Source of the DNA: Virgisporangium ochraceum
Lineage (GTDB): Bacteria; Actinomycetota; Actinomycetes; Mycobacteriales; Micromonosporaceae
Length of the DNA stretch: 64,000 bases
Assembly: GCF_016863655.1 (NCBI RefSeq)
Contig: NZ_BOPH01000082.1
Span: forward strand, 124,001 to 188,000
Direction of reading: 5' to 3'
Shown: piece by piece, positions 34,814 through 42,122 of the stretch
How positions within the stretch are numbered: position 1 is the first letter of the stretch
Layout: each line of letters opens with the position of its first letter
Program-made: the position numbers and the translations under genes
Notes under the pieces: generated by a model
The model's input: the letters and a program-made list of their open reading frames with translations, nothing else
Databases searched by the model: none
Told to the model about the DNA's origin: nothing

Positions 34814-34821
34814 CCGAAGTA

Positions 34822-34860
34822 GTTGTATGGCCGAACCATAAGGTTGTATGGTCGAACCAT
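34822..34860 (+). promoter_or_regulatory. Tandem operator overlapping marR start
   Basis: GTTGTATGGYCGAACCAT occurs twice (34822-34839 and 34843-34860) with a 21-base period, two helical turns, so both copies face the same side of the DNA. Each unit is a near-palindrome (ATGG...CCAT). The second copy runs into the ATG at 34859, so a bound repressor would block its own gene. The marR product is the expected ligand. Confidence 0.7.
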
Positions 34861-35302
34861 GTCGGGAACGGACGATGTCGCCGCCGCGCAGGAGGCGTTG
34901 CAGCGGTTCGTGCGCAACTTCGGTCTGCACCAGCCGGGGCGCACGCCCTGCGGTCAGCCGCTGCCGGTCTCGGAGGCCTACGCCGTGGCCGAACTGCACC
35001 GCGAGGGCCGGCTGCGTCAGGCGGAACTGGGTCGTCGGCTGCGGCTGGAGAAGAGCACCGTCAGTCGCCTCGTCGCCAACCTCGTCAACCGGGGATGGGT
35101 CCACCGGCACGCCGCCGACGACGACGGGCGGGGGGTCGAGCTCGACCTCACCGACGCGGGCGCGGTTGCCGCCGCGAAGCTGGCGGCCGCCCGGCAGGAC
35201 AAGTTCGCGGCCCTCCTCGACCGCGTGCCCGACGACCACCGTGCCGCGCTCGTCGCCGCACTTCACCTGCTCGCGGAGGCGACCGATGACCCGAACCCGT
35301 AA
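34859..35302 (+). CDS. MarR-family regulator
   Basis: This 147-residue winged-helix regulator contains LRQAELGRRLRLEKSTVSRLV as the HTH and DDGRGVELDLTDAG as the wing. ATG 34859 is the start; upstream codons in frame correspond to the operator repeats. It overlaps the following lipoprotein gene by 17 bases. The tandem operator at its start suggests strong autoregulation and co-control of the lipoprotein. Confidence 0.85.
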   Translation: MSGTDDVAAAQEALQRFVRNFGLHQPGRTPCGQPLPVSEAYAVAELHREGRLRQAELGRRLRLEKSTVSRLVANLVNRGWVHRHAADDDGRGVELDLTDAGAVAAAKLAAARQDKFAALLDRVPDDHRAALVAALHLLAEATDDPNP

Positions 35303-35781: not shown

Positions 35782-36510
35782 CTACGCCGCGGGCCGGCTT
35801 CCCGCGGACAGGGCCACGTACGCGCGCAACCGGGCGTGGTCGGCGGTGTCGTGGTGGACGCGCAGCATCGAGTAGGGCGGGCCGCCGTGGCCGATCCGGG
35901 GCGCGTGCGACAGATCCAGCCGGTCGCCGGGCCGGATCACCCGGGTCAGCACGGCCTCGGCGAGGACGTGGTTCACGTGCACCAGGTAGTCGCCGACGGT
36001 GAGGCCGGCGGTGGCGATCTCCAGCCGGTGAACGGTTCCGCTCGCGGGGCCGGGCAGGTCGGTGGTCAGGGTCGCCGGGACCACCGGCTCGCCGCCGCCG
36101 TCGAACCGCTTGAGCAGGCGGCGTAGACCCAGGGAGGCGTCCGGGGGCACCGGGGCGAACCACATCATGGACCCGTCGTCGCAGAGATGGTCGCCGGTGA
36201 ACCGGCCGCGGAGGTTGGCGGGGTTGCCGCTCAGGAAGATCGTGCGGGTGAACGCCCGGAACCACGCGTCCCGCCGGGTCCCGTGTACGCCGGCCGCGAA
36301 CGCGACCGCCGAACGGACGAAGACCTCCGGATCGAACCGGCGCAGCACCGCGATCGCCGCCACGTCGGGTGCCGCCCGCTCCGCCGCGTCCACGTCGGGC
36401 GGCCCCGGTGCGTCCGGCCCCGGTGCGTCGGGTGCCGGCGCGTCCGGCCCGACCTGCACCCGGCGGATCCGGCGGGCCCACTCGGCGCGGAGCAGTTCCT
36501 GCGTGGGCAT
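35782..36510 (-). CDS. Unknown soluble protein, last gene of GH3/kinase operon
   Basis: I do not recognise this 242-residue protein. Residues 22-45 form a low-complexity Pro/Asp/Ala linker with PDAPGPDAPG repeats. The following core (about residues 50-235) has FVRSAVAFAAGVHGTRRDAW, RFTGDHLCDDGSMMWFAPVP and a C-terminal HVNHVLAEAVLTRVI segment, with no signal peptide or membrane helix. ATG 36510 shares a base with the stop of the upstream gene (TGATG), so it is translationally coupled. Its function must be tied to the operon pathway. Confidence 0.65.
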   Translation of the reverse strand: MPTQELLRAEWARRIRRVQVGPDAPAPDAPGPDAPGPPDVDAAERAAPDVAAIAVLRRFDPEVFVRSAVAFAAGVHGTRRDAWFRAFTRTIFLSGNPANLRGRFTGDHLCDDGSMMWFAPVPPDASLGLRRLLKRFDGGGEPVVPATLTTDLPGPASGTVHRLEIATAGLTVGDYLVHVNHVLAEAVLTRVIRPGDRLDLSHAPRIGHGGPPYSMLRVHHDTADHARLRAYVALSAGSRPAA

Positions 36511-37616
36511 CAGCAGTACACCTGCCCGGCCACGTCGCCGGCCACCGCCCGGTCGCGGCGGCCCAGCATCGCCGAGGTGAGGCGGTAGGGGTCGACGTGC
36601 AGGCCGCCGCGCGGGCGGTGCCGTCGCAGGTAGCCGACGACGTCGTGCGTCGCCGCGCCGGCACCGCCCGCCAGGATCGTCCGGGCCCGGTCCACGTACT
36701 GCCGCAGCAGCGCGGCCTGGAACGAGCGGTCGCTGCCGCGGCCCAGGACGGCGATGAAGTACAACCGCATGCCGAGCCGCAGCACCTCCGGGTCGGCGTC
36801 CCCGCACGTCTCGACGAGGCTCGGCACGGTGTACCCGTGCCACCCACCGAACCGGCTGGACCGGATCACGCCGTCGACCGGTACGCGCGTCACCGCGTCC
36901 CGGACGACCTCGGCGCCCAGGACCCCGAGCAGCCGCTGCAGCAACAGGTAGTCGTCGGTCAGCTCCCGGTCGTGGACGAGGACGGTCCGGTCGTACGAGG
37001 TCGCCAGCGGCACCAGCTCCCGCAGCGCACCGGCGAGGTAGTTCGGCTGGCACTCCCGGGTGACGATCTGCCGCAGCGGCATCCCGTACCGGGTCAGGTC
37101 GAGGTAGACGGGACCGTTGTCGGGGCGGCAGTCCAGGCACAGGTCGCGGGCCGCGAGGTGGTCGATCAGCTCTTCGAGCCCGAACGCCGGATGCCGCACG
37201 GTGGTCAGGCCGGGGTCGTGCAGGCCGAGCCGGGCGAAGTGGCCGGTCCACAGTTCGAGGAGCCGGGCGCTGGCGGGATGGACCCACCCGCTGCTCTCCA
37301 CCGCCCGCAGGTAGGGCCGCAGCGCCGCGAACGGCGGCCGTCGCCCCTCGGCCTGGAAGCGCATGTAGGACTCGCCGAGTTCCTCCTCGGTCTGCGCGGA
37401 GTAGTCGGTGTCGCCGATGGTGCGGTCGAGGAACTCCCAGTAGCCGAGCGTCTGCGCCGTGACGTTGTAGGTGGTGTTGCTGTAGCGGTACGTGGTGTCC
37501 GCGAGCGCCGCGGTGGCCCGGTACATGACATCGACCCAGAGCAGGCCCTTGATGTGGCTCGGCGTCAGCGGCTTGGTCGGTGTGACCGTGACCGGTGCGA
37601 TGAGAACGCGCGGCAT
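36510..37616 (-). CDS. Divergent class I aminoacyl-tRNA synthetase-like protein
   Basis: This 368-residue protein matches no named family that I can recall with certainty, but its layout is that of a shortened class I aminoacyl-tRNA synthetase. PSHIKGLLWVDVM (His21) stands where the HIGH motif would be and YNVT follows. Then come LDLTRYGMPLRQI, TVLVHDRELTDDYLLLQRLL and, at residues 252-264, RSSRFGGWHGYTV in the position of KMSKS. The helices after it (VLRLGMRLYFIAV, ALLRQYVDRARTILAG) resemble the arginyl/cysteinyl type. No anticodon-binding domain remains. By analogy it could adenylate an amino acid for ligation. This is inference; it needs profile search. Confidence 0.4.
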   Translation of the reverse strand: MPRVLIAPVTVTPTKPLTPSHIKGLLWVDVMYRATAALADTTYRYSNTTYNVTAQTLGYWEFLDRTIGDTDYSAQTEEELGESYMRFQAEGRRPPFAALRPYLRAVESSGWVHPASARLLELWTGHFARLGLHDPGLTTVRHPAFGLEELIDHLAARDLCLDCRPDNGPVYLDLTRYGMPLRQIVTRECQPNYLAGALRELVPLATSYDRTVLVHDRELTDDYLLLQRLLGVLGAEVVRDAVTRVPVDGVIRSSRFGGWHGYTVPSLVETCGDADPEVLRLGMRLYFIAVLGRGSDRSFQAALLRQYVDRARTILAGGAGAATHDVVGYLRRHRPRGGLHVDPYRLTSAMLGRRDRAVAGDVAGQVYC

Positions 37617-37619
37617 CGC

Positions 37620-38483
37620 TCAGTCCCGCGTTCCGTGCACGAGGAACACCCGGGCGACGCCGGGTACCGAACGGTCGGGCACGGTGTCCGTCCACCGGCC
37701 GTAGTCGGCGCCGGGTTCGCCCGGCTGCGTGGCGGTCACCGTGAACCCGTACCCGGCGAGCAGCGTCTCCGGTTCGTCGCTGCCCGACACCCACGGCGAG
37801 CCCCACGAGGCGAACAGGTCGAGCAGCCCGCGGATGGGCGGCGCGTCCAGCGCCTCCTCGCCGAGCAGGTCGCAGATCAGAGGGCTGCCGCCGGCGGCGA
37901 ACCGGCCGAGGTCGGCCAGCAGGGTGTGGACCTCGGCCGCCGTCAGGTAGTAGAGGACGCCTTCCAGGACCCACACCGCGCGCCGGGCCGGCTCGAAGCC
38001 GGCCGCGGTCAGCCCGGCCCGCCAGTCGTCGGTCACCAGATCGGTGGGGACCGGGTGCCGCCGCACGTTCCCCGCGGGCCGGTGACCGTGCAGGGCGGCC
38101 TCCTTCGCGTCGAGGACCGCGGCCCGGTCGAGTTCGTACACGTCCACCGGGTGGGGCCAGTCGAGCCGGTAGGCCCGGGTGTCCATGCCGGCGGCGGCGA
38201 TGACGACCTGGTCGACGGCGCCGGATGCCAGCGCTTCGGCCAGCCGGTCGTCGATGAACCGGGTCCGGACGGCGTTGTAGTCGGCGGTGTCGGGGAGTCC
38301 GGGGGCGCGGCTGTCCGCGGTGAGCCGGGCCACCTCGTCGAACAGCGCGACCCCCACCTCGCCGGCGAGCGCCGCGGCGTACGGATCGTCGTAGAGCCGG
38401 TCGGGCCGGGCGCTTTCCCGGATGCGCAGCGCCGTCGTCAGCAGCGACGTGCGGGCGACCGGGTCGAAGCCGTGCACATTCAT
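37620..38483 (-). CDS. TIGR00027-type class I SAM methyltransferase (PPM1/LCMT-like)
   Basis: This 287-residue enzyme shows the TIGR00027 pattern: DPVARTSLLTTALRIRES at the start, QVVIAAAGMDTRAYRLDWP (SAM loop), VYELDRAAVLDAKEAAL and AVWVLEGVLYYLTAAEV. This group methylates carboxylates or hydroxyls in natural products and lipids. It ends 3 bases before the synthetase-like gene's start and begins 27 bases after the GH3 gene, within a five-gene operon. Confidence 0.88.
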   Translation of the reverse strand: MNVHGFDPVARTSLLTTALRIRESARPDRLYDDPYAAALAGEVGVALFDEVARLTADSRAPGLPDTADYNAVRTRFIDDRLAEALASGAVDQVVIAAAGMDTRAYRLDWPHPVDVYELDRAAVLDAKEAALHGHRPAGNVRRHPVPTDLVTDDWRAGLTAAGFEPARRAVWVLEGVLYYLTAAEVHTLLADLGRFAAGGSPLICDLLGEEALDAPPIRGLLDLFASWGSPWVSGSDEPETLLAGYGFTVTATQPGEPGADYGRWTDTVPDRSVPGVARVFLVHGTRD

Positions 38484-38510
38484 GCTCGTCTCCCTTGATG
38501 CGTAAAGGGT

Positions 38511-40172
38511 TCAGCGGACGGTGTGGGAGAGCAGCCGGTGCCACGCGTCGTCGTCACGCTGGAACACCCGGTCCTTGACCTGTGCCGGCCGGATCCCGGA
38601 CCCCACCCGGGCATGCCAGTCGTGGGCGAACGCGTCCGCCGTGAGCACGTGGACGACGGGTTCGGCCAGGGCCGCGGCCGCGCGGGCCGCCCGGTAGCCG
38701 GGGGAGACCGACACCAGGCCGTCGTCCAGCGCGCGCGCCAGCGCCACGGTCTCGGCCGGGTTCAACGCCTGCCGGGGAGAGACGGCGAACTCGTAGCGGA
38801 CGGCATCCGGGCCGTCGGGCCGCACCGGGCGGCAGGTCGCGTTGTGGGCCGCCAGTCCACCGGACCGGAGCGCGGTCCGCAGCGCGTGCACGACGTGTGA
38901 CTCGCGCAGCCGTTCGCCGGCGACGTCGGAGGTGGTGCCGCGGCCGGCGTAACAGACCCGGGGCATCCCGTGCAGCCGGTCGACGACCCGGACCACGTCG
39001 CCGAGCGCGTACCGGTACAGCCCGCCGACGTGGCTGAGCACCACGTGGTACTCCTGCCCGGTCTCCAGCTCCTCGAACGACATCGTCGCGCTGTCGGCCC
39101 TGATCCCGTCGTCGGCGGGCACGAACTCGTGGAACGCCGCACCGAGGGCGGGCGAGCAGCCACTGCCGTGCCGGTCGACGCCGACGGCGACGAAACCCTC
39201 GGAAGCGGCCACCGGTGCGGGAAGCGCGACCACGTCGGTGCCGAAGGACGCGGCGAGGCCGGGCAGGTACAGCGAGGCCAGCCCGGTGGTCCAGCAGAAC
39301 AGCACCCGGAAGCGTGGCCACACGTGCGCGGGGGTCAGCGTGCCGAACATGTCCGCCAGCCGTTCGAGCCCGGCCGCCCGGTGCGGGTTCGGCGACCCGT
39401 ACGGCCGGCCGCCGAGCGTGCCGTCCCGCAGGTCCTTGACGATGCGCGGCCACCACCGGGCGAGCTGGTACGGCACCGCCGCGACCATCGCGGGGTTGAT
39501 GCCGACGACCATCCGTACGTCGTGCTCGACGGCCAGCCGCAGCCGCAGATACGCCTTCTCGAGGTGGTCGGTGTCCGCGACCGGTACCGGCAGCTCGCCC
39601 CAGACGGCCCGCGACCCCGGTTCCGCCGACAACGGCTCCCCGAACGCGGTGCCGAGGTCGACCTGGCTGGCACCCAGATGCGGACGACCCGACGCGGTGG
39701 AGGCGGTCCGGCTCACCGGATCGAACTTCAGGTTCAGCGTGCTGTCGTCGGCCAGCACGTCGGGGTAGTGGTCGGCGACGGTCGCCCAGGCCGTGTAGTA
39801 GGGCGGGAAGAAGCCGGTCCGCATGAACCGGCGGGTGACCGGGATCTTCTTGCTGTCGCCCGTGGTGCCGCTGCTCATGAAGAACACGACGGGGTCGTCC
39901 GCGGACAGCACACCACGCTCGCCGGCGGCCGCGCGGTCGATCCACGGCGCGAGCCCGTCATACGTGCGGATGGGCACCGCACGGCGGAAGTCCTCACCGG
40001 TGCGGACGCGGGCGAACCCGTGCTCACGCCCGAAAGCGGTGCCGGCGTTGGCCGACACGACCTCGTCGAGCACCCGCTGCCGTGCCAGCGCCGGCTCGGC
40101 CAGCAGGCGCAGGAAGCCGTCGCGTTCGGACCGCACCCGGCGGCGGTACTCACCTGTCGACGCGGCCGGCAT
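38511..40172 (-). CDS. GH3-family acyl-adenylating amide synthetase
   Basis: The 553-residue protein follows the GH3 auxin-responsive family, ATP-dependent acyl-adenylate enzymes that join carboxylates to amino acids or amines. Three GH3 nucleotide motifs are present: FFMSSGTTGDSKKIPVT (residues 97-113), a middle ASEGF (323-327) and GGLYRYALGDVVRVV (383-397). The start LAEPALARQRVLDEVVSANAGTAFG is also typical. GH3 enzymes are best known in plants; bacterial ones are few and mostly uncharacterised. It overlaps the P-loop kinase gene by 23 bases. It could form an amide with a product of the neighbouring enzymes. Confidence 0.85.
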   Translation of the reverse strand: MPAASTGEYRRRVRSERDGFLRLLAEPALARQRVLDEVVSANAGTAFGREHGFARVRTGEDFRRAVPIRTYDGLAPWIDRAAAGERGVLSADDPVVFFMSSGTTGDSKKIPVTRRFMRTGFFPPYYTAWATVADHYPDVLADDSTLNLKFDPVSRTASTASGRPHLGASQVDLGTAFGEPLSAEPGSRAVWGELPVPVADTDHLEKAYLRLRLAVEHDVRMVVGINPAMVAAVPYQLARWWPRIVKDLRDGTLGGRPYGSPNPHRAAGLERLADMFGTLTPAHVWPRFRVLFCWTTGLASLYLPGLAASFGTDVVALPAPVAASEGFVAVGVDRHGSGCSPALGAAFHEFVPADDGIRADSATMSFEELETGQEYHVVLSHVGGLYRYALGDVVRVVDRLHGMPRVCYAGRGTTSDVAGERLRESHVVHALRTALRSGGLAAHNATCRPVRPDGPDAVRYEFAVSPRQALNPAETVALARALDDGLVSVSPGYRAARAAAALAEPVVHVLTADAFAHDWHARVGSGIRPAQVKDRVFQRDDDAWHRLLSHTVR

Positions 40173-40806
40173 GTCCGCTCCTCGGGGTGTGTCGTAGCGC
40201 GGCGACCGTCCGCTCGATGCTGTCGGGACCGTCGACGGGATGGATCGGCACCGTGCCGATCTCCTCGACCATCAGCCGGCGCAGGTCGATCTGGAACCTG
40301 CGGAAGCCCTCCCACGTGGGAACGGCGCCGTAGTGCTCGAACGCGTTGAGGCGGGCGCCGTTGTCGCTGCGGCGCCAGGCGGTCGCCGGGTCGACGTCGA
40401 GGTAGATGACCCGTGACGGTTCCGGAAACGAGCGCCACCACGCGAACATGCGGTCGTTCACCAGCCCGGTCAGCCGGCACTTGGCGAGAATCTTGTAGTA
40501 GTAGGAGTCCACGACCACGGGGCCGCCCCGTCCCGTGTCCAGCGCCTGGTCGCGCAGGTAGACGACGGACGTCTGCAACAGCGTCAGCACGAAGTCCCGC
40601 GAGTAGGCGGTGTCGACACCGGGCATCGCGCGGGTGACGAAGCCGTCGCGGAGGTCGTCGACGAGTGAGCATTCGGGCCGCACGAAGCCGGGATCGTAGG
40701 ACACGCACCGCACGCCGCGCGCCGCCAACGCGGAGATCAGTGTGGACTTGCCGGCGTAGTCGGGCCCGAGCACGACCGAGAACCCGGTGACCGGCTCGTT
40801 GCGCAT
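40150..40806 (-). CDS. Thymidylate-kinase-like P-loop protein, first gene of operon
   Basis: This 218-residue P-loop kinase has Walker A GPDYAGKST (residues 14-22, in VVLGPDYAGKSTL), a middle strand VVVDSYYYKILAKCRL in the position of the DRY/DRW motif, and VIYLDVDPATAWRRSDNG, equivalent to the thymidylate kinase lid that follows. It lacks the full dTMP-binding pattern, so the phosphate acceptor is likely different from dTMP. It is the first gene of the GH3 operon and overlaps the GH3 gene by 23 bases. Confidence 0.75.
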   Translation of the reverse strand: MRNEPVTGFSVVLGPDYAGKSTLISALAARGVRCVSYDPGFVRPECSLVDDLRDGFVTRAMPGVDTAYSRDFVLTLLQTSVVYLRDQALDTGRGGPVVVDSYYYKILAKCRLTGLVNDRMFAWWRSFPEPSRVIYLDVDPATAWRRSDNGARLNAFEHYGAVPTWEGFRRFQIDLRRLMVEEIGTVPIHPVDGPDSIERTVAALRHTPRSGHAGRVDR

Positions 40807-41114
40807 GGGGACCTCCCCTCGGATGTGACCTGATGGACCGGCGCGGACGCCGGACGACCCACCGCCCGGCGCCGGGCAGTGGCAAGTCTTGGGGGTTCGC
40901 CGCCGTGACGAAAACCCCTATTCACCTGGCCCGGAGCGGCGTCGTCCGGCGTGAGCGGGACGTCAGTGGGGCGCGAGCGGACGCACCTATGCTGCGCGGG
41001 TCGGACCTGCCAGGAGCCGCCACGGGCCCCGCGCATCGGCATGGTCGAACGGGGGATGCCGGTGCGCGCGGTCCGGCAGTACGACACGTCGACGACGAAG
41101 GCACGGGGTCGGCT
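40807..41114. other. Intergenic region upstream of the GH3 operon
   Basis: This 308-base stretch lies between the divergent kinase and SMI1-like genes. It must hold their promoters, but I see no clear hexamer pair, repeat or RNA structure. Confidence 0.4.
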
Positions 41115-42122
41115 GTGAACAGTTCAGGTGGAGACGACGCGTTGCGGGCCGCGGCCCGTCTCCTCGTCGACAACGGCCCGGCGGGCTGGCGTACGGCCAC
41201 GCTGTCGGTCGACCTCGTCGCGCGCGGCCATGGCGGCGAGGGTGTGCGGTACCGCACCGCCGACGGCAACGGCGTCCACGTCCCCGCGATGAGTCACACC
41301 GCGATCGCCGTCCCGATGGTCGAGCTGTTCGGCCGCCTGGTCGAGGGAACCCGGATCCGGCAGGTCGCGGTGGACCTGACGGTCGACTCCGACGGTGCGT
41401 TCGACGCGGTCGCCCGGTTCGGTCTACGCCAGGCGGGTGCCGGCGGCTCCTACACCGTCGTGCTGCGCGACGACCTGCCGCCACCGAGGAGCGGATAGCG
41501 GCGGCGGAGGCCACGCTGGGCCACCGGTTCCCGCCGGACCTGCGCGCGCTGTACGCGGTCTCCGACGGCGGCGGCACCATCGACGGCTGGGGCCTGTACC
41601 CGCTCGCGGAGGTGACCGGCATGTACGGGATCACCTCGGTTCCGGCCGGGCGGTCGTGGCCGGGCGCGTGGACCCGGGTCGTTCTCGACGCCGACCCGGC
41701 CGGCACGGTGCGCCGGGCGAGCGGGCACCCCGGATGGATCCCGATCGCCGACGACAGCGGCGGCAACTTTCCTCGCCGTCGACCTCGCACCGGCCCGTCA
41801 CGGCCGGCCCGGACAGGTCATCAACGTGGGCGTCGACTGGGAGACACGGCCCGGGTACGTCGCCGAGTCGGTCACCGCCGCGGACCTGGAACCGTTGCGG
41901 GACCTGCCGTTGGAGCACCTGACAGCGAACTCGGCGTCGGACCTGGCCCCGCTGTCGGGCCACCGGACCCTGCGCTCGCTGAGCCTGACCCGGGGTGCCG
42001 CGCCGGCCGACCTGACGCCGCTGCGCACCGTCGCCCACCTGCACGGCCTGTCGCTCACCGACGCCGATCCCGCGGAGACGGCCAGTTGCACCAGGTCCGC
42101 CCGGGGCCGCCTGGGTCGGTAG
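41115..42122 (+). pseudogene. SMI1/KNR4-type protein gene interrupted by two frameshifts
   Basis: Three consecutive segments encode one protein in two frames. GTG 41115 opens an N-terminal domain (LRAAARLLVDNGPAGWRTAT to SYTVVLRDDLP) that runs to a stop at 41498. A missing base near 41480 moves the SMI1/KNR4 domain (TEERIAAAEATLGHRFPPDL, then LYAVSDGGG, HPGWIPIADDSGGNF) to another frame. An extra T near 41770 returns it to the first frame, where LAVDLAPARHGRPGQVINVG leads into short leucine-rich repeats and an abnormal tail. The shifts are -1 and +1, so the net frame is unchanged, but an in-frame stop at 41496 lies between them. It is either a pseudogene or a sequencing artefact. SMI1 proteins are often immunity proteins of toxin systems. 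Confidence 0.7.

Follow-up and report, generated by a model that had tools for sequence, protein, structure and literature searches.

A conserved five-gene actinomycete operon with an arginyl-tRNA synthetase-like protein, DUF6182 and a GH3 enzyme, proposed to make a small amide-containing metabolite

We analysed a stretch of 64,000 nucleotides from the 11.4-Mb genome of Virgisporangium ochraceum (contig NZ_BOPH01000082.1, positions 124,001 to 188,000), referred to below as the window. On its minus strand lie five genes coding for a P-loop kinase (K), a GH3-family amide synthetase (GH3), a methyltransferase (MT), a short paralogue of arginyl-tRNA synthetase (ArgRS), which we call RS, and a member of the family DUF6182. 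All five genes are intact; they make up a single unit and are inherited together. With moderate confidence, we propose that they are a conserved biosynthetic operon, horizontally mobile, whose product is a small amide-containing metabolite that would be made through GH3, RS-DUF6182, kinase and methyltransferase steps.

Organization and conservation of the five-gene unit

The unit had originally been predicted from the letters of the window, and its five tightly packed open reading frames match that prediction exactly in coordinates and spacings (Table 1). K and GH3 overlap by 23 bases, gaps of 27 and 3 bases separate GH3 from MT and MT from RS, and RS and DUF6182 share one base in the sequence TGATG. 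Clear Shine-Dalgarno-like sequences are present at K, GH3 and MT. The GC content of the operon is 0.731, compared with 0.721 for the window. The arrangement is far from a chance one, as the same gene order is repeated in eight other loci.

Table 1. Genes of the operon and its upstream region in the window
Feature	Position	Strand	Length and basis
K, P-loop kinase, thymidylate-kinase-like, first gene	40150..40806	-	218 aa; Walker A, weak PF02223
GH3-family adenylate-forming amide synthetase	38511..40172	-	553 aa; PF03321, GH3_M, GH3_C
MT, S-adenosylmethionine (SAM)-dependent methyltransferase, LCM/TIGR00027 family, probable carboxyl O-methyltransferase	37620..38483	-	287 aa; PF04072, TIGR00027
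RS, short class-I aminoacyl-tRNA synthetase (aaRS) paralogue, ArgRS type, without N-terminal tRNA-binding domain	36510..37616	-	368 aa; AlphaFold2, Foldseek, profile alignment
DUF6182 protein, conserved RS partner, no recognised fold	35782..36510	-	242 aa; PF19680
Upstream intergenic region, presumed operon promoter region	40807..41141	.	335 bases, from the kinase start to the divergent plus-strand reading frame at 41142

Because RS is unique, it was used as the marker for conservation. RS was found in 28 of 393 Streptomyces genomes, in three of 35 genomes of a second family and in one genome of a third family belonging to the order of V. ochraceum; one Streptomyces copy lies on a 1.04-Mb linear mobilizable plasmid. 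It is missing from two further Virgisporangium genomes. Altogether, RS occurs in five genera and four actinomycete families, so that co-occurrence in distant genera, which had been set as a test beforehand, is borne out. A pattern-based scan of GTDB genomes, a method that detects close relatives alone and that also made up the search beyond the phylum, returned Streptomyces only, so the true spread may be wider. In the phylogenetic tree of RS the non-Streptomyces members are placed among Streptomyces rows, a position that suggests horizontal movement, although some of the forks concerned have weak support. One further genome of the window's family (G1153, L076:9271-10166) contains two RS fragments, 39-40% identical and lying in different frames; no partner gene of the four was found with them, and this is likely a decayed copy.

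To compare gene orders, loci of about 20 kb were used, with genes predicted automatically by a self-trained caller. Nine loci, of which the window is one, have exactly the order K-GH3-MT-RS-DUF6182. The loci that hold the set with added genes number about 15 in all; among them, ten complete ones and four variants read K-GH3-MT-[flavoprotein]-RS-DUF6182-[LysR-substrate-domain protein]-[alpha/beta hydrolase]. In another seven, RS-DUF6182-GH3 is followed by a fusion of 3-hydroxy-3-methylglutaryl-coenzyme A (HMG-CoA) reductase with an APH kinase and by a thymidylate-kinase-like protein, while two loci read K-DUF6182-x-RS-[AfsA] and the remaining patterns are single variants. Across the loci, the operon genes mostly abut or overlap by 4-14 bases. 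At L082:12902-15247 and in six relatives the HMG-CoA reductase/APH-type fusion always precedes the thymidylate-kinase-like protein, and it hints at a mevalonate-derived acid as the GH3 substrate there.

The kinase and GH3 genes accompany RS much more often than chance would allow. Strong kinase homologues (E < 1e-40) were detected in 22 of the 393 Streptomyces genomes, and 21 of these 22 are RS-positive (one-sided Fisher test, 7e-28). The sole exception, G965, retains the kinase and one flank at 78-88% identity to locus L073 with the remaining operon gone (L141), and looks like a decayed operon left by deletion. For GH3, 18 of the 25 genomes above cut-off, among 296 Streptomyces, carry RS (one-sided Fisher test, 3e-21). 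The seven RS-negative ones have a lower-scoring, more distant GH3 in another gene neighbourhood (about 30% identity in L144, the example examined). When the five families are compared by their pairwise distance matrices, the correlations reach r 0.72-0.93, with RS and GH3 the highest. Separately, we observed at L144 and L146 Streptomyces GH3 genes of another, more divergent group, 30-31% identical to the operon type and with an AfsA-family gene within about 10 kb; they may belong to a further GH3 pathway not yet described.

Elsewhere, and beyond what had originally been noticed, the core forms part of nonribosomal peptide synthetase (NRPS), polyketide synthase (PKS), lasso-peptide, AfsA/acyl carrier protein (ACP) and isoprenoid-type clusters. 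At L077 and L083, asparagine-synthase-like, PqqD-like and transglutaminase-like proteins, which together make up the lasso-peptide maturation set (lasso-type B/C proteins), and a TauD oxygenase are contiguous with RS-DUF6182-GH3. NRPS genes are present at L078 and L079, a modular PKS at L082 and a CmlA-type hydroxylase at L084. L080 and L020 contain a phosphoenolpyruvate (PEP)-synthase-like ligase, a UbiA-like protein, AfsA, ketoacyl-ACP synthases (KASIII and KAS) and ACP. In four loci (L063, L066, L068 and L070) genes for ACP, an AfsA-type protein, HAD and a tautomerase come before the operon, and CMD, P450 and YcaO after it. At L018 two related methyltransferases lie upstream, 3 bases from the kinase, and the one tested matches the geranyl-diphosphate-methyltransferase family. 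SARP/BTAD regulators flank the core in L008-L013. With such unlike scaffolds around it, the core is best explained as a plug-in whose task is to make or attach a single group shared by all of them, or else to make a shared signal, and we regard it on the strength of these neighbourhoods as a candidate portable biosynthetic module.

Properties of the encoded proteins

RS matches no Pfam or NCBIfam family above threshold. Its AlphaFold2 model, built from an alignment of 33 relatives, has a mean predicted local distance difference test score (pLDDT) of 93.7, and the best 20 Foldseek matches to it in the PDB are all ArgRS (E-values to 5.6e-10, template modelling (TM) scores to the query up to 0.64). 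CysRS structures follow after ArgRS, and the hydrazine synthetase PyrN (9l8v) is in the top 50 at about the 40th place. Profile-profile alignment of RS with ten actinobacterial ArgRS (hhalign) gave an E-value of 1.5e-4 with the HIGH, GTQ, Tyr-pocket and KMSKS elements in register, compared with at least 0.025 for reversed and unrelated controls. By model and profile, the gene originally described as class-I-aaRS-like is thus assigned to an ArgRS-fold paralogue of the class-I aaRS. The protein begins at the strand preceding HIGH and extends about 90 residues beyond the catalytic core, and it possesses neither the N-terminal tRNA-binding domain nor the full anticodon-binding domain of ArgRS.

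Within the signature motifs, the RS sequence K15-P-L-T18-P-S-H21 stands where ArgRS has K-P-x-H-x-G-H. HIGH is mostly TPSH or GLSH in the family, with its first His and its Gly absent in all 34 aligned rows, and the upstream K15 and the second His, H21, are invariant. The KMSKS region reads xxSxRxG. Y193, also invariant, corresponds to the ArgRS Tyr that packs on the arginine guanidinium; four residues on, RS has a non-acidic residue where ArgRS has Asp. Instead, R199 is invariant. As the arginine-binding Asp is lost, RS is probably not arginine-specific. We infer from these features that RS would be an (amino)acyl enzyme acting on a small molecule or carrier, and no translation enzyme.

A class-I aaRS core without full tRNA-binding domains that joins an amino acid to a small molecule is known from MshC, the mycothiol cysteine ligase. 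MshC is derived from CysRS, whereas for RS the CysRS structures rank below ArgRS. Further dedicated aaRS-like paralogues that carry out aminoacyl chemistry outside translation are SbzA, AcmF, VlmL and the PyrN-type hydrazine synthetases (PMC12945691, PMC11705231, PMC9379638). They resemble RS as synthetase paralogues within biosynthetic operons, but they are IleRS-, AlaRS-, SerRS- or MetRS-like, and RS is ArgRS-like, short and paired with DUF6182 and GH3.

The last gene, previously listed as unknown, belongs to a named family: its product matches DUF6182 (PF19680) with an E-value of 2.9e-68 and 230 bits (cut-off 25). The AlphaFold2 model (pLDDT 91.6) found nothing below an E-value of 0.2 in the PDB, with TM scores to the query of about 0.15. 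Invariant residues are H181, E185, W83, T90, G95, P97, W117 and R217. DUF6182 adjoins RS in nearly all loci, and in genus g27 it is fused to a FAD_binding_4/cytokinin-dehydrogenase-type oxidase (L018:10514-12697 and L019:12067-14277, the latter assigned by clustering and length). Two candidate identities were rejected after profile comparison, namely a PTH2/DUF2000-like protein, taken from weak viral Foldseek matches (probability 0.2, E 0.28), and an AfsA-type hotdog, taken from the beta-alpha-beta-beta-beta order (E 0.18-0.53).

GH3 contains all three domains of its family (PF03321, E 1.9e-43; GH3_M PF23571, 6.9e-16; GH3_C PF23572, 3.2e-5), and its nucleotide and adenylation motifs SSGTTGDSKK, ASEG and YRYALGD are intact. 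S100-G105, K108, E325, R387 and D392 are conserved in 35 relatives. The closest solved relatives are the plant GH3 amido synthetases such as JAR1 and GH3.6, which have the three-domain family in common with it; they are distant (best phmmer E 6e-19), so that their acyl and amine substrates are not transferable to this protein. A bacterial member of the GH3 family is OlsH, a lyso-ornithine lipid synthetase of planctomycetes that N-acylates ornithine in an ATP-dependent manner (PMC12493201). The NCBIfam OlsH model does match the window GH3 (E 1.4e-27), but with 96 bits against a cut-off of 620, and no RS, DUF6182 or kinase partners were seen for OlsH in the text consulted (PMC12493201).

MT is likewise firmly placed by PF04072 (E 1.9e-48, 165.3 bits, cut-off 22.3) and TIGR00027 (E 1.9e-61, 207.8 bits, curated cut-off 93.55), and the identities first given for both genes therefore hold. 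It is a probable carboxyl O-methyltransferase by prediction. Another PF04072 enzyme, Ady1 of azodyrecin, methyl-esterifies a small product in vitro (PMC9379638), although the azoxy genes of the azodyrecin-type cluster were not seen at the operon loci. The kinase had been called thymidylate-kinase-like. Its Walker A motif, GPDYAGKST, and LID-type Arg residues identify a P-loop kinase resembling nucleoside monophosphate or thymidylate kinases (NMP/TMK-like), and G14, D16, G19, K20, S21, D100-S101-Y102, R146, G150, N154 and E157 are kept over 25 relatives. The closer family name is not reached, as the match to Thymidylate_kin PF02223 is weak (E 0.012, 15.7 bits, cut-off 27), that to AAA_28 is also weak, and the whole-family thymidylate kinase profile TIGR00041 gives 15.3 bits with a cut-off of 83.

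Proposed pathway and competing explanations

In the scheme that we favour, GH3 would adenylate a carboxylic acid and couple the acyl-AMP to an amino acid, through its amine, or to some other amine, giving an amide. Together, RS and DUF6182 would add to the intermediate a second (amino)acyl group, other than arginyl; the P-loop kinase would phosphorylate a hydroxyl of the acid or of the acceptor, and MT would cap a free carboxylate by methyl esterification. For the NRPS, PKS, lasso-peptide or AfsA/ACP-type pathways of other genomes, the same core may provide a building block or a decoration. Amide formation by GH3 and carboxyl methylation by MT would be the activities expected from their families; the step order, the RS substrate and the role of DUF6182 are guesses. 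A more specific version, which we put forward tentatively, is that RS, with half of its HIGH lost, and DUF6182, with its unrecognised fold, are the two components of a new kind of acyl or aminoacyl transferase that evolved from ArgRS. Together with GH3 and the kinase it would install one shared, undescribed group, e.g. a phosphorylated or methyl-capped aminoacyl amide, which the chemically unrelated NRPS, PKS and lasso products would each have acquired as a plug-in and which would also act by itself as a small metabolite or signal.

Several points weigh against the proposed pathway. A common strand and tight packing are not proof of co-transcription, and the family similarity of the kinase is weak. 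Shared species history is uncorrected in the distance correlations. The type-c loci L020 and L080 hold K, RS and DUF6182 without GH3 or MT, and the type-b loci are without MT, so neither amide formation by GH3 nor capping with a methyl group accompanies RS-DUF6182 everywhere. Finally, every relative has lost the first His of HIGH and also its Gly, so RS may be impaired in activating amino acids or may do so in a changed way. The capped amide- or phosphate-containing metabolite of the original prediction is upheld in part: GH3 with a probable carboxyl-methyltransferase fits it, and half of the RS HIGH signature is gone.

This loss, together with the xxSxRxG form of the KMSKS region, leads to a different mechanism for RS, in which it does not adenylate and, like a cyclodipeptide synthase (CDPS), takes an activated acyl group, either from aminoacyl-tRNA or as acyl-AMP or acyl phosphate from GH3 or the kinase, and passes it to an acceptor. 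CDPS are a precedent for class-I aaRS folds that use aminoacyl-tRNA (PMC12945691). On the other hand H21, K15, Ser253, Arg255 and Gly257 are nearly or fully invariant, as around ATP in ArgRS-type enzymes, and the ATP site may thus survive. We consider a non-adenylating RS possible but doubtful; it is a variant of the mechanism and not of the biological role, and its probability overlaps that of the favoured pathway. The ArgRS fold could also suggest a backup or resistance ArgRS beside unrelated genes. We rejected an ordinary or resistance ArgRS, which is very improbable given the missing N-terminal tRNA-binding domain, the non-acidic residue at the guanidinium-binding Asp, the altered HIGH and the two full-length, divergent ArgRS genes elsewhere in the genome (L087 and L093). 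Genome G1129 likewise has two, and a second ArgRS gene of this kind may be a resistance or horizontally acquired copy.

Alternatively, the product could be a diffusible signal, i.e. an N-acyl-amino-acid-type hormone (autoregulator) that switches on host clusters, and not an antibiotic or building block. SARP/BTAD-type regulators beside the core in L008-L013 and AfsA-type hormone enzymes in the four L066-type and two L080-type loci are consistent with this, and the minimal set is small, mobile and found alongside chemically unrelated NRPS, PKS and lasso clusters, like hormone genes. However, no receptor gene was found at the core, where no search aimed at one was made, the window operon has no adjacent regulator except a convergent MarR gene, and the contiguous run with lasso maturation genes at L077 and L083 suits tailoring better, which makes a signal unlikely. 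More improbable still is an N-N bond-forming RS-DUF6182 pair analogous to the aaRS-plus-cupin hydrazine synthetases. PyrN is among the Foldseek matches of RS, a flavoprotein (c6) or fused FAD oxidase accompanies RS-DUF6182 in many loci, and Ady1 acts on an azoxy compound (PMC9379638). PyrN nevertheless ranks well below ArgRS and CysRS, no cupin domain was found in or beside RS, neither Pfam nor fold comparison links DUF6182 to the cupins, no VlmA/VlmO-type gene occurs among the neighbours examined, and minimal operons are without a flavoenzyme. A known azoxy or hydrazine pathway was also rejected, as matching genes were not seen. An anti-phage defence system was dismissed because PADLOC models match none of the five proteins.

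Setting in the window and significance

The flanks of the operon code for DUF305, LytR-CpsA-Psr, MarR, a Pfam-less protein, a SAM methyltransferase, MMPL and LmeA. This neighbourhood is non-biosynthetic, which places the operon outside any evident larger biosynthetic cluster; it stands alone as a biosynthetic unit. The position of this minimal operon among such genes argues that five genes can suffice. In the 335-base region upstream of the kinase no sigma-70-type site was detected. Divergent from the operon, positions 41142-42122 of the plus strand encode one protein across three frames (AALRAAARLLVDN..., ...LGHRFPPDLRALYAVSDGGG..., ...WETRPGYVAESVTA...), which suggests a frameshifted SMI1/KNR4-like pseudogene or sequencing errors. 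A near-perfect repeat, TTGTATGGCCGAACCATAAGGTTGTATGGTCGAACCAT, lies at 34820-34862 across the start of the MarR-family gene and is a probable, putative operator through which this gene would regulate itself.

In the literature searched, mostly without subscription journals, aaRS paralogues in natural-product pathways are already known (PMC12945691, PMC11705231), no ArgRS-derived paralogue paired with GH3 was found, DUF6182 appears in no paper and the five-gene set is undescribed, in line with the original remark that no described bacterial pathway with this set was known. There is a real chance that the set carries out new chemistry. About 7% of the sampled Streptomyces genomes carry the module, yet of its core proteins one is known solely as a DUF and a second has no match in Pfam or NCBIfam. 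As it occurs within NRPS, PKS, lasso and AfsA clusters, the module is well suited as a handle for genome mining. If solved, the operon would give the chemistry for a whole group of unassigned clusters, a new case in which translation machinery is reused to make small molecules, and a role in bacteria for GH3, a family best known from plant hormone control.

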